Assembly: GCA_944325605.1 (NCBI GenBank)
Contig: CALVAX010000005.1
Coordinates: forward strand, 62,001 to 126,000
Origin: Candidatus Gastranaerophilales bacterium
GTDB taxonomy: Bacteria; Cyanobacteriota; Vampirovibrionia; Gastranaerophilales; Gastranaerophilaceae
Direction of reading: 5' to 3'
DNA: 64,000 nucleotides
In this document: positions 13,144 through 57,516 of the stretch, piece after piece
Position numbering within the stretch: the first letter of the stretch is position 1
Layout of the letters: every line of letters begins with the position of its first letter
Position numbers and translations under genes: made by a program
Notes under the pieces: generated by a model
What the model was told of the DNA's origin: nothing
Seen by the model: only the letters and a program-made list of their open reading frames with translations
Databases searched by the model: none

Positions 13144-13968
13144 ATGACAGGTATGTTTATGGGCTCGATGTATTCAATGCCTTATATGCCAAGTTATCCT
13201 CTCGGTGAAGATTCATACAGCAATCAGGTGTTTCTGAACGATCTGACAGGACTTAACTGGTTTACACCTCCATTTAATATGCCAATGCACGGTATGGGGA
13301 TGGATGAAAGTTTGTTTGATTATACATACAGCATGCCTATGCCCTATACAATGCCGGGCTTTGACTCATATTATCAGAATATGGATAAGTATTATGAAAA
13401 TATGATGAATAACCAGATTAATTATCAGCAAAAAACAAGAGAAGCTGATATTACTCTAAATGCCGCTCAAAGAAGCCTTAGACAAAACGGTAAAAACCTC
13501 AGAAACAAAATAGTTACAAACGAACAGGATCAAGTTCTGAATGCATTCAACAAATATGTCGAAAGCGTTCAGGAATACTACGGAAACAAAGGCAGCTATG
13601 AAGATTTAAAAAACACTGCTCTTGATACTTATGAACAGCAGTTCGGCAAAGATATTCAGACTGAACTGAAAGAAAACGGCAGTGATTCATACTGGCATGG
13701 TATTAAAAAAGTCGCATCTTTAGGGTTCGCAAGCAAAAGAAGCGCTGAAGATAATATTGCTTTAATTACAGGGCAGCCTAAAGGCAAAACCGAAAAATAC
13801 AAAGAATGGGCAGGAAATGCAACTGCCGGTGTAGGTTTAGGACTTTTAGGCGGACTTACAATACCGAAAATCTTTAAAAATATAAAATCTCCTAAACTCA
13901 AAACAGTAGCACTTGCAGGTGCTGCGGCCGGATGGGTTTACGGCAGAGTTCTCGATTTATTTTCTTAA
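13144..13968 (+). CDS. Met/Tyr/Pro-rich protein with C-terminal membrane-like segment
   Basis: Not recognised. The first 95 residues are rich in Met, Pro, Tyr and Gly (MGSMYSMPYMPSYP; YSMPMPYTMPGFDSYYQNM). A charged helical region follows (100-190), then a Gly/Ala-rich hydrophobic end (about 225-265: AGVGLGLLGG and LAGAAAGWVYG) suggesting membrane insertion. It is preceded by a strong AGGAGG site and followed by a good terminator at 14020, so it is a single-gene transcript. Lying next to the MGLSATQARLLS paralogue, it may share its process, but this is only proximity. Confidence 0.8.
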   Translation: MTGMFMGSMYSMPYMPSYPLGEDSYSNQVFLNDLTGLNWFTPPFNMPMHGMGMDESLFDYTYSMPMPYTMPGFDSYYQNMDKYYENMMNNQINYQQKTREADITLNAAQRSLRQNGKNLRNKIVTNEQDQVLNAFNKYVESVQEYYGNKGSYEDLKNTALDTYEQQFGKDIQTELKENGSDSYWHGIKKVASLGFASKRSAEDNIALITGQPKGKTEKYKEWAGNATAGVGLGLLGGLTIPKIFKNIKSPKLKTVALAGAAAGWVYGRVLDLFS

Positions 13969-14019
13969 TTTTCCTAATTTCCCCAATAGTGTAGATAATA
14001 TGTGTGTGTAATTTTTTTC

Positions 14020-14046
14020 GGAACCTTCCAAAAGGTTCCTTTTTAT
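14020..14046 (+). terminator. Rho-independent terminator
   Basis: Perfect 8-bp stem GGAACCTT / AAGGTTCC with a CCAA loop (14020-14039), followed by a T-rich run. It lies 51 bp after the 13144-13968 stop codon. Confidence 0.85.
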
Positions 14047-14068
14047 TTGCGTCTTTCACAACAAAGAA

Positions 14069-14109
14069 TTCCCGCCCCTCTTTTTATTTGAAGGAGTGAG
14101 GAACGGGAA
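14069..14109. repeat. Imperfect inverted repeat in intergenic DNA
   Basis: TTCCCG (14069-14074) pairs with CGGGAA (14104-14109), with partly complementary CCCTC and GAGTGAGG inside. It sits between the terminator at 14020 and the promoter at 14188. It could be a second structured RNA element; no protein-coding potential. Confidence 0.35.
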
Positions 14110-14187
14110 CTAAATCAGTAAAAGAGACATCACCAACATTATTATTTACTTTTTTTATAAGTCAAATTTTGCGAAATAAATTTGATT

Positions 14188-16726: not shown

Positions 16727-16836
16727 ATTCACATAAAAACGAAACACATATTTTTTTGCTTTAAAAAGTAAAATTTTTACAAAGTTGCAAGCTAGTTTTT
16801 CTTAAAAAATTCAATTATATCATAAACACTTTCCGC

Positions 16837-16943
16837 ACATAAAAGTAAAAAGCGCCTTTATGACGCTCTTTCGGACTTTTGTATTTGATTGTGATTTGTC
16901 CGATTTTGAACCGGATTCACTTGTTTTTGAAAATGGGGCGCCT
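16837..16943. other. attL: left 107-bp prophage direct repeat
   Basis: This copy matches 57343-57449 at 103 of 107 positions (differences near positions 12, 15, 86 and 94 of the repeat). Its last 10 bp reproduce the 3' end of tRNA-His including CCA on the complementary strand. As tRNA-His is intact on the right, this copy should be the displaced host 3' end plus downstream sequence. Confidence 0.88.
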
Positions 16944-17078
16944 TGTAGGACGATGCTCGAAATTTTAACACATAACAAAAAATTTGCAACTTTTTATCAA
17001 AATAACGTCAAAAATATAATCTGTCAGACTGAAAATATTTTACTAATTGAAGAAATCGCGAATTTTCTTGCCGCATAA
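16944..17078 (+). other. Stranded alternative C-terminal exon of the recombinase
   Basis: Immediately after attL the frame of the recombinase (encoded across the repeat) stays open for 44 more codons (CRTMLEILTHNKKF... to FLAA) and stops at 17076-17078. In the excised circle this DNA would follow the right repeat copy in frame. In the prophage state it lacks a promoter or ribosome site and is probably silent, so I do not call it an independent gene. Confidence 0.65.
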
Positions 17079-17168: not shown

Positions 17169-18002
17169 ATGACACAAAAAAGCCCTAGTAAACTATACAA
17201 ATACACAACAGTCGATGCAGCACTTAAAATTTTAACTACTTCTACCGTGCGCTTTTCATCACCAAATTGTTTCAATGATCCATACGACTCTCGTCCGCCA
17301 ATATATTTAAAATGCGATAATAAAAACACAAAACAAAAACTTTATAATGCAGGGATTAACATAAAAGAAGACTCCATGGTATTAAATAAAAAGACAACAT
17401 CCATAAGCAACTTTTTTACAAAACAACATAAATATTATCGCATATTCTGTTTATCAAAAACAAACAAAAGTATTCTTATGTGGTCGCATTATGCAAACTG
17501 TCACCGTGGTGTAGTAATTGAGTTCAATTCAAATACCCCAATAATAAAAGAAGCTGAACCAATAAAATACCAAAAAAGTATGACCATCGATTTTGACATT
17601 TTAAAAGATTTTCCAAAACTGCAAAATAAAAAGGCACAAAAAACACAAGAAAAATTATACCTTATTAAATTCACTGATTGGCAATATGAACAAGAGTATA
17701 GATGTTCATTCATAACAGAAGATTCGGAAAACTTCAAAAAGAAATTCCATAGTAAAGATGTCAATAATAAAACTTGGGAAAACTGCTCTAAAGAATTTGA
17801 AAAAATGAAAGAACACATTCATATTCCTATACCTGTAAATGCAATAAAAGCTGTTTATCTCGGCTGCAATATTAATCCTATTGACAAAACAGCAATTATT
17901 GAAATTTTAAAAACAAAATATCCACGTGCAAAATGTTACGAAGCAAAAAAGTTTGAAAATTCTTTTGAACTAAAGTTCAATGAAATAACATTAAATCCTT
18001 AA
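17169..18002 (+). CDS. DUF2971-like protein, prophage cargo
   Basis: The 277-residue soluble protein fits the DUF2971 pattern: LYKYTTVDAALKILTTST (residues 9-26), SSPNCFNDPYDSR (near 32), RIFCLSKTNKSILMWSHYA (near 91) and GVVIEF. A later part has WQYEQEYRC (near 178) and VYLGCNINP. The biochemical role of DUF2971 is not established as far as I know. It has a GAGAGG ribosome site. It is transcribed rightwards, against the late genes, from the attL edge, and pairs with the next gene. Position suggests lysogen-expressed cargo such as defence. Confidence 0.8.
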   Translation: MTQKSPSKLYKYTTVDAALKILTTSTVRFSSPNCFNDPYDSRPPIYLKCDNKNTKQKLYNAGINIKEDSMVLNKKTTSISNFFTKQHKYYRIFCLSKTNKSILMWSHYANCHRGVVIEFNSNTPIIKEAEPIKYQKSMTIDFDILKDFPKLQNKKAQKTQEKLYLIKFTDWQYEQEYRCSFITEDSENFKKKFHSKDVNNKTWENCSKEFEKMKEHIHIPIPVNAIKAVYLGCNINPIDKTAIIEILKTKYPRAKCYEAKKFENSFELKFNEITLNP

Positions 18003-53606: not shown

Positions 53607-54221
53607 TTGAAGTTATCTGAATTCATAAAGGAAACCAATAAACACCTTGAATATAAGCTAACCTACACAAAAGTTGCAGAAATTCTAAATGTGTCAAGAC
53701 AATACTTATCGACAATACGAGATAAAGAACTAAGTGTAAAAAATCTTAACATTCTGACTGAATACTTTAACAAAAATGTAAACAAAAATTTTAATTTCAT
53801 CAAAATTCCGGTTTACGGCAATGTGACCGCAAGCATGGGTTATGGTATTAGTGTATATGACGAAAATCAGACCGGAGTTTATGAAATAAGCCAGAAACTG
53901 GCAAAAGATATCGGCATCATCCCGGGCAAAACAGAGATGATTTTTGCTTCAGGTGACAGCATGTATCCGACAATAGAAGGCGGAGACAGCCTTTTAATAG
54001 ATACGTCCAAAAAAGAAATTCATGACGGCCGGATCTTTTGTGTAAGAGTTGAAGGCCAGCTTTACGCAAAACGCCTTCAAAAAATTCCTCCCAACAAAAT
54101 CAAAGTAATCTCAGACAACGGAAGCAAATATGATGCTTTTTATGTTGATTTTTCAAAAGATATCAATTTTGACTTTGAAGTAATCGGAGAAATCCGCTGG
54201 TGGGGGCGTGTAGCAAGGTAA
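53607..54221 (+). CDS. LexA/CI-type phage repressor with S24 peptidase domain
   Basis: The 204-residue repressor has an N-terminal Xre-like HTH (LTYTKVAEILNVSRQYLSTI near 17-36) and a C-terminal S24 self-cleavage domain. Visible are AS-MGYG as the cleavage-site region (near 75), the serine in FASGDSMYPTIEGGD (near 115) and the lysine in GQLYAKRLQKI (near 152). RecA-stimulated cleavage would induce the phage. The start is TTG with CAGGAG six bases upstream, suggesting modest expression. Confidence 0.9.
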   Translation: MKLSEFIKETNKHLEYKLTYTKVAEILNVSRQYLSTIRDKELSVKNLNILTEYFNKNVNKNFNFIKIPVYGNVTASMGYGISVYDENQTGVYEISQKLAKDIGIIPGKTEMIFASGDSMYPTIEGGDSLLIDTSKKEIHDGRIFCVRVEGQLYAKRLQKIPPNKIKVISDNGSKYDAFYVDFSKDINFDFEVIGEIRWWGRVAR

Positions 54222-55844: not shown

Positions 55845-57497
55845 ATGTTTAATTTCGCAGAACAATTTTTCACTCCATCAGGTCGGCCAATATCAAGGGT
55901 CAGATTATACATCAGAGTTTCCGATGATGAACAGGTACTCGGACACAGCTTAGCCATGCAAGAAAAAGAAGACAGCAACTTTGCCAAACGTCACAAATAT
56001 TTAATCACCGGCAAATATGTAGATGCCGGCTATACCGGAAAAAACATGAACCGCCCCCAGCTTAAATTACTTTTGGCCGACATCAAAAACAAGAAAAAAG
56101 ACTTTGATGCGATAATAGTCTGGAGATGTGACAGATTAATCCGAAATAATGATTATTATCATAGTGTCCTAAAACCTATATTCGACAGGGCTGATATTGC
56201 TATTTTATCTGCAACAGAGAACAACGATATGAATAACCCCTACGGAAAATATATGCGAAACATGCAGATCAACAATGCCGAACTTGAATCTGATATCAAT
56301 TCCATAAGAACAATTGCCAATCTTAGAGAAAAGTGTGAACAAGGATTTTCGCCCGTTGCAAGGCCACCTGTTGGCTATATTCGAATTAAAACTAAAGACA
56401 AGAAAAAATTAATAATTCCGGATCCGGAAACCAGTTTTTATGTACAAAAAATATTAAAACTTCACGCAACCGGGATATATAGCGACAGAATGCTTGCGGA
56501 TCTTATGCGCAAAGAAGGATTTAAAAAATGCACAAAAAAAATGGTAGAAAATATCACTAGAAATAATCTAAAATTCTACTCCGGCAAATTTGATTACAGT
56601 CTAAAAGATTACAATGGAAACAGAACAACAAAAGAATATCAGGGAAAACATGAACCTCTAATATCACTTGAACTATATGAAACAATAAAAAGATTACATA
56701 ACGAGCATGCAATCTATGCATCAAAAACAACAAAACACGACTTGTTATATAAAGGCTTAATCAAATGTCCTAAAAATAACAAATTCTTATCCGGAGAAAT
56801 TCAAAAAGGTAAAAATCAAAGCGGGGAATACGAATACTGGCGATGTCACAAACCAATAAAAGGTGATGCAGTTTGTAATGCGTGCAAAAAATGTATCAAA
56901 TCAACAATAATAGATAACGCAGTAATTGAAGTTTTAAAAGAAATTGAAATCACCCCCAAACAACTGGATGAAATCAAAGAGAATTTCAAGATATTTTTTA
57001 ATATACAAACAGACTATGATGAAAAAAAGAAAGAACAAATTGCCGTAAAAATCAAAAAACTTAGAAATCGACTAAATCAATTATACGAAGATAAACTTGA
57101 CGGATTAATAGATCAAGAAATATACATAGAAAAAAGAGACAAATATTCAACTGAATTAAATGAACTTAATATTGAATACAGTGCTTTAAGCAAGACAAAT
57201 CAAATTTTATTTGAACGCTTAGAACAAGCGTTCGAACTCTGCAAAGACTTGACTGGACGCTATTTCCAGCTTTCACATTCAAAAAAGCGGGAATTGCTGA
57301 AATTGTTGTGTTCGAACTTTTTTTATCAGGACTCAAAATTAAACATAAAAGTGAAGAGCGCCTTTATGACGCTCTTTCGGACTTTTGTATTTGATTGTGA
57401 TTTGTCCGATTTTGAACCGGATTCACCTGTTTTTAAAAATGGGGCGCCTGATGGGATTCGAACCCATGCATATCGGAACCACAATCCGAGGTCTTAA
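55845..57497 (+). CDS. Large serine recombinase (phage integrase)
   Basis: The 550-residue recombinase has the resolvase catalytic domain (catalytic Ser26 in LYIRVSDDEQ; AIIVWRCDRLIRN near 99). A recombinase domain (GFSPVARPPVGYIRIKT; ILKLHATGIYSDRMLADLM) is followed by a zinc ribbon (CPKNNKFLSGE, CHKP, CNACKKCI) and a coiled coil (about 385-455). It integrates and, with a partner, excises the prophage. AGAGGAG precedes ATG. The last ~50 codons run across attR and the final 15 are antisense to tRNA-His; the tail differs in the excised form. Confidence 0.93.
   Translation: MFNFAEQFFTPSGRPISRVRLYIRVSDDEQVLGHSLAMQEKEDSNFAKRHKYLITGKYVDAGYTGKNMNRPQLKLLLADIKNKKKDFDAIIVWRCDRLIRNNDYYHSVLKPIFDRADIAILSATENNDMNNPYGKYMRNMQINNAELESDINSIRTIANLREKCEQGFSPVARPPVGYIRIKTKDKKKLIIPDPETSFYVQKILKLHATGIYSDRMLADLMRKEGFKKCTKKMVENITRNNLKFYSGKFDYSLKDYNGNRTTKEYQGKHEPLISLELYETIKRLHNEHAIYASKTTKHDLLYKGLIKCPKNNKFLSGEIQKGKNQSGEYEYWRCHKPIKGDAVCNACKKCIKSTIIDNAVIEVLKEIEITPKQLDEIKENFKIFFNIQTDYDEKKKEQIAVKIKKLRNRLNQLYEDKLDGLIDQEIYIEKRDKYSTELNELNIEYSALSKTNQILFERLEQAFELCKDLTGRYFQLSHSKKRELLKLLCSNFFYQDSKLNIKVKSAFMTLFRTFVFDCDLSDFEPDSPVFKNGAPDGIRTHAYRNHNPRS
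57343..57449. other. attR: right 107-bp prophage direct repeat
   Basis: Counterpart of 16837-16943. It encodes the end of the recombinase on the plus strand and, on the minus strand, the tRNA-His 3' end (57440-57449) and downstream hairpin. A 70-bp identical core lies between the mismatches. Confidence 0.88.
57354..57376 (-). terminator. Hairpin downstream of tRNA-His
   Basis: AAGAGCG / CGCTCTT (7-bp stem, 9-base loop) followed on the minus strand by CACTTTTATGTTT. It could end the tRNA-His transcript. The stem is weakened by a mismatch in the attL copy. It is carried by attP, so integration restores it. Confidence 0.5.
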
Positions 57498-57516
57498 CCG
57501 CTTGACGACAGGCGCC
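57440..57516 (-). tRNA. tRNA-His (GTG), with encoded G-1 and CCA
   Basis: Folds as a cloverleaf: acceptor GCGCCTG/CAGGCGC, anticodon stem TCGGA/TCCGA around TTGTGGT with anticodon GTG, T arm ATGGG-TTCGAAT-CCCAT. The extra 5' G (57516) pairs with C73 and CCA is encoded, both tRNA-His hallmarks. Its 3' end is the prophage attachment site and its antisense strand encodes the recombinase tail. Confidence 0.95.

Follow-up and report, generated by a model that had tools for sequence, protein, structure and literature searches.

The window, a stretch of 64,000 nucleotides from a Candidatus Gastranaerophilales genome, harbors a complete prophage of about 40.5 kb (16944-57436) located at the 3' end of a tRNA-His gene. 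The prophage is of the contractile-tailed type and encodes a terminase, a portal, a major head protein, a sheath, a tape measure protein and a baseplate, together with replication genes. The host tRNA-His (gtg; 57440-57515, reverse strand), whose 3' end is the attB site, is kept in relatives along with its host flank. One of these relatives, G006, displays an empty site in which the left flank (to about window position 16780) is joined to the right flank (from 57450), with a short hairpin region in between. The host flanks of the prophage are genuine, because this empty site continues both of them. The first gene inside the left end (17169-18002, forward strand) adjoins attL and encodes a 277 amino-acid protein that matches the phage family PHROG 1762, whose function is unknown.

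At the right end lies the gene of a large serine recombinase (LSR; 55845-57497, forward strand), 550 amino acids long in its prophage form. Resolvase N-terminal, recombinase and zinc-ribbon domains are all present as profile matches above the curated cut-offs (PF00239, 9e-25; PF07508, 2e-4; PF13408, 5e-6). These domains span residues 21-365, left of the attachment core, which corresponds to residues ~532-534. Beyond the core, the frame passes through attR into the antisense strand of tRNA-His, and the prophage protein terminates as NGAP followed by DGIRTHAYRNHNPRS, a tail of 15 codons plus stop (57450-57497, forward strand). Recomputed coordinates agree with the initial annotation, which had the frame end 15 codons beyond the repeat at a total of 550 residues. 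A CI-like repressor gene (53607-54221, forward strand; PHROG 4 / 6201) precedes the LSR and is read in the same direction; it stands 3 kb from the core, and attP is thus not inside the repressor.

A direct repeat (16840-16943 and 57346-57449; offset 40506, 4 mismatches) flanks the element. The initial annotation had described this repeat, with limits 1-2 bases off; the repeat itself is there, but a reading of its entire length as the att core does not hold. When attL and attR are compared in G059, G011, G046 and the G002 tandem, the sole common block is AAATGGGGC or AAATGGGGCG, about 9-10 bp, the short core expected of an LSR. In the window, the minimal shared core AAATGGGGC lies at 57437-57445 (attR) and 16931-16939 (attL), on the forward strand in both cases. 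On this comparison, the crossover site is not the 107-bp repeat in its entirety, because only ~9 bp are common to the attL and attR of the relatives. Upstream of the core, the right copy of the repeat (57346-57436, forward strand) is the 3' coding region of the LSR, on the P-arm side, and the left copy (16840-16930, forward strand) reproduces it. Most likely, this left copy is a footprint, the LSR 3' end of an earlier element; that it is an LSR 3' end fits with an older element of the same kind having occupied the site and been lost save for its end. A living intermediate of such a history is found in G002, where a younger element lies behind an older one at a single tRNA, and in locus L143 an LSR relic stands ahead of attL. 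A tblastn match seemed to extend the relic in the window back to 16716; it was rejected as mostly alignment run-on, the similarity beginning sharply at 16840.

At attL, the LSR frame is in register with the repeat. In the window, the integrase frame passes across the core at attR and at attL alike, as predicted for an integrase gene that spans attP. On the left, NGAP is followed by 44 codons, CRTMLEILTHNKKFATFYQNNVKNIICQTENILLIEEIANFLAA (CRTMLEIL...IANFLAA), and a TAA stop at 17076-17078 (16944-17078 in full, forward strand). This segment would join the LSR only in the circular phage, in which the predicted enzyme counts 535+44 = 579 amino acids. The earlier claim of a left frame stopping at 17078, with 579 residues in the circle against 550 in the prophage, was reproduced on recomputation. 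Shuffles of the window sequence yield 44 open codons with a probability of about 2%, and the window alone thus merely suggests a coding tail.

The relatives available for comparison are mostly draft assemblies. The closest is G059 (locus L063), whose LSR is 86% identical to that of the window and which has no long repeat. Its attL reads NGAP followed by CRSMFEVIYDTECILLLEGINNFLAA and a stop, as compared to NGAP, CRTMLEIL...TENILLIEEIANFLAA and a stop in the window. The G059 tail is shorter by 18 whole codons, and its last Leu codon and one of its last Ala codons differ synonymously. In G011, with an LSR 49% identical, a homologous 50-codon tail ends in NPDNILLLNMVRNKIA and is preceded by a host-like left flank. 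The search for this lineage-1 tail in 383 genomes returned the window, G011 and noise only, and viral contigs scanned with the window LSR revealed no relatives. Between lineages, these short tails diverge rapidly.

Another LSR lineage found at tRNA-His, the second, has a different conserved tail, exemplified by NGAGNGLISEPLHNIFNIIDNEECQAIFRRIEKLQAA and a stop, in 10 of the 383 genomes of the order, distributed over 8 genera. From NGA to the stop, its frame comprises 37-38 residues (33-34 codons past the core), G046 and G002 included, and in loci L153 and L154 the prophage form of the LSR reads into tRNA-His. Homologous conserved tails at tRNA-His in other genomes thus show that the left tail frame is kept open in related prophages; its loss there, named by the initial annotation as a possible refutation, is not what is seen. 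Counting only codons past the presumed integrase-binding arm, the five element pairs give a pooled pN/pS of 0.26 and a Fisher p of about 2e-7, a value that is approximate because the lineages of these pairs, separate and treated as independent, share an origin. Judging from this substitution pattern, the circular-form tails are under purifying selection at the protein level.

These data bear on two non-coding views of the tail. One of them holds the left frame to be open at random and the antisense-tRNA readthrough to be a trivial by-product; a single 44-codon frame is not exceedingly rare by chance, and antisense-tRNA C-termini are common in the order. Homologous open tails in at least 10 genomes, with the pN/pS value above, refute this view, and chance is ruled out because the tails are conserved. 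According to the other, the tail is kept merely as the P' arm of attP, an integrase-binding DNA whose open frame would be a by-product. The first ~25 bp past the core are indeed conserved as DNA in lineage 2 (ATTTCCGAACC), but past codon 10 the changes concentrate at synonymous sites, the tails differ in length by entire codons and retain their stop. This second view is largely refuted and very improbable.

A different coding solution would be a small stand-alone gene at the left end of the phage, of which the tail would be a part. An ATG does occur at codon 4 of the window tail (CRTM), where a small free-standing ORF is possible, and an in-frame ATG is found a few codons past the core in L063, G046 and G002 as well (CRTM, CRSM or NGM contexts). 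However, G011, G350 and L237 have K or S at that position instead; the conserved frame starts in the core itself, and the LSR is in phase at every natural junction, which makes an independent gene improbable.

Such natural junctions, in which an LSR 3' end is joined in frame to a tail as it would be in the circle, are present in three records. In contig C3 of G002, the LSR of the older element is fused in frame to the left end of the younger one. Contig C4 of G350, 39.8 kb long and hence element-sized, encodes a fused LSR of 528 amino acids and carries no tRNA; its ends do not overlap, leaving its circularity unproven. The viral contig L237 has two fusions, an LSR relic with a tail at 1650 and a fused LSR at the right end; the tails of the left relic (1-1650) and of the right LSR (13182-14138) are near-identical. 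The AlphaFold2 model of the fused form of G002/L064 is poor (pLDDT 50.5) and gives no structural role for the tail.

Taken together, a structural tail swap, in which integration trades the native C-terminus of the LSR for a tail read from antisense tRNA-His, is the preferred reading, with a probability of roughly 0.85. Its bases, all read from DNA sequence, are the frame, its conservation, selection, the natural in-frame LSR-tail junctions and the empty site. The LSR gene would be built over its own attachment site, with the core AAATGGGGC in frame and read as N-G-A, while its native, selected C-terminus would be encoded by the other end of the phage and meet the LSR only in the circle. On infection, the circular phage would produce the full-tail enzyme and insert at the tRNA-His 3' end; integration would then remove the native tail and put the short antisense-tRNA tail in its place, the prophage producing a different enzyme from then on. 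The full tail may serve integration, as a C-terminal helix and/or as a proteolysis signal, and the prophage form may have a changed stability, activity or partner binding. We consider the odds to be even that the 579- and 550-residue forms differ in function. If the two forms do differ in activity or stability, they would constitute a built-in switch coupling the form of the enzyme to the integration state.

Two ideas remain as to what the tail may be: a functional C-terminal helix or a degron. In both lineages, the tail terminates with a comparable hydrophobic pattern (approximately ILxxIxxL). The degron idea is a stricter version of the tail swap, in which the ssrA-like end of the circular tail (-LAA, -IAA) would be read by ClpXP-type proteases; the integrase of an infecting phage would be short-lived, limiting lysogeny, and the prophage form stable. 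The tails of the window and of L063 end in FLAA and those of lineage 2 mostly in LIAA or LQAA, the tmRNA tags of the host order end in ALAA (G007, G039) or AKAA (G000), and just 0.9% of the long ORFs in the examined DNA end in AA. Furthermore, the repressor of phage BPs loses its -LAA-like tag on integration, and the BPs integrase has a tag of its own (PMC9262239). Against these resemblances, G011 and L237, both of lineage 1, end in KIA and LYA, G034 ends in IAT, and the tRNA-Asn tails discussed below end in CL or DF. The ending was also spotted after the fact, in two lineages only and from sequence, and the degron version is rather unlikely.

The IntP integrase of Myxococcus phage Mx8 is a tyrosine recombinase. 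Its attP lies inside int, integration gives the gene a new 3' end, and the prophage form is reported to stay active with a changed specificity (PMC6070905). The window LSR resembles IntP in having attP within the integrase coding sequence and its 3' end exchanged on integration; IntP differs in not being an LSR, and the replacement tail in the window is antisense tRNA-His. The serine recombinase DsiB of the Dehalococcoides ssrA islands has a 3' end that always overlaps the att site and a stop codon outside the island (McMurdie 2011, PMC3146451), and its authors speculated that full function may be confined to the circular form (PMC3146451). As described, DsiB is an att-spanning serine recombinase like the window LSR; however, its target is tmRNA, its tails are divergent and no conserved circular form was seen, whereas the tails of the window group are conserved and selected. 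The swap of an integrase's own tail, which the initial annotation had presented as lacking a familiar precedent, therefore has precedents in Mx8 (PMC6070905) and DsiB (PMC3146451).

In mycobacteriophage BPs and its relatives, integration at a tRNA strips an ssrA-like C-terminal tag (PMC4557955, PMC9262239). The likeness lies in integration at a tRNA and, possibly, in an ssrA-like end of the viral form: the circular tail of the window ends in LAA, some tails of relatives being different. The difference is that in BPs it is the repressor gene that contains attP, and integration is the work of a tyrosine enzyme, while attP is in the integrase gene in the window. The archaeal suicidal integrases (SSV1, pTN3, pT26-2) also carry the att site within their own gene, and integration breaks that gene up (PMC8371274). 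These tyrosine enzymes are split in two and the intact gene is lost, whereas the window LSR exchanges its tail alone: its domains all lie left of the core, and the catalytic domain is not severed. As compared to these precedents, and among open-licence papers, what appears to be new is the existence of conserved, selected circular-form LSR tails, often with an ssrA-like ending (-LAA/-IAA). The serine integrases at tRNA-His would thus possess a selected C-terminus that is confined to the circular phage and swapped when the phage integrates. A practical corollary is that genome-engineering LSRs taken from prophages may carry the wrong tail in their cloned form.

Serine integrases were stated in 2014 as not known to target tRNA genes. 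In 19 of 24 other LSR loci of the order (L006-L031), the LSR frame terminates within, or extends across, the antisense strand of a tRNA or of tmRNA; the tRNAs concerned are those for Asn, Val, Ala, Glu, Asp, Leu, Ile and Arg. For the tRNA-Asn LSRs of G005, two attL copies display a conserved tail with a pN/pS of 0.10. The tRNA-Ala, Asp, Ile and Arg elements show no clear attL within the stretches examined. A tail at tRNA-Val in G020 looked promising and was dropped, its middle being an interspersed repeat: the candidate (L215, G020:C7:80267-80479) overlaps a repeat with 18 matches in G026. This repeat has many copies in some genomes of the order and may represent a repeat family. It is tempting to extend the design to the order, with Gastranaerophilales LSR genes spanning their own tRNA att site, the circle encoding a conserved-tail form for integration and the prophage a tail-swapped form; we put this forward as a tentative possibility. 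If true, the enzyme itself would both report and lock the integration state, with degron-like tails in the tRNA-His lineages.

A few features of the tRNA-His sites deserve separate mention. The G002 region cited above (L096-L100, G002:C3:120001-202204) holds a tandem of two distinct prophages at a single tRNA-His; along much of its length, the outer one matches the window prophage at >90% identity. Contig C6 of the same genome ends inside a repeat copy, which hides the left junction of element B. Within the LSR coding DNA of the window, a hairpin is predicted by folding at 57354-57376 (AAGAGCG/CGCTCTT), and in relatives with an empty site (G006, G009) the same place, downstream of tRNA-His, is taken by a hairpin of their own. 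With its hairpin, the 3' end of the LSR may also act, on the opposite strand, as a substitute terminator of tRNA-His.
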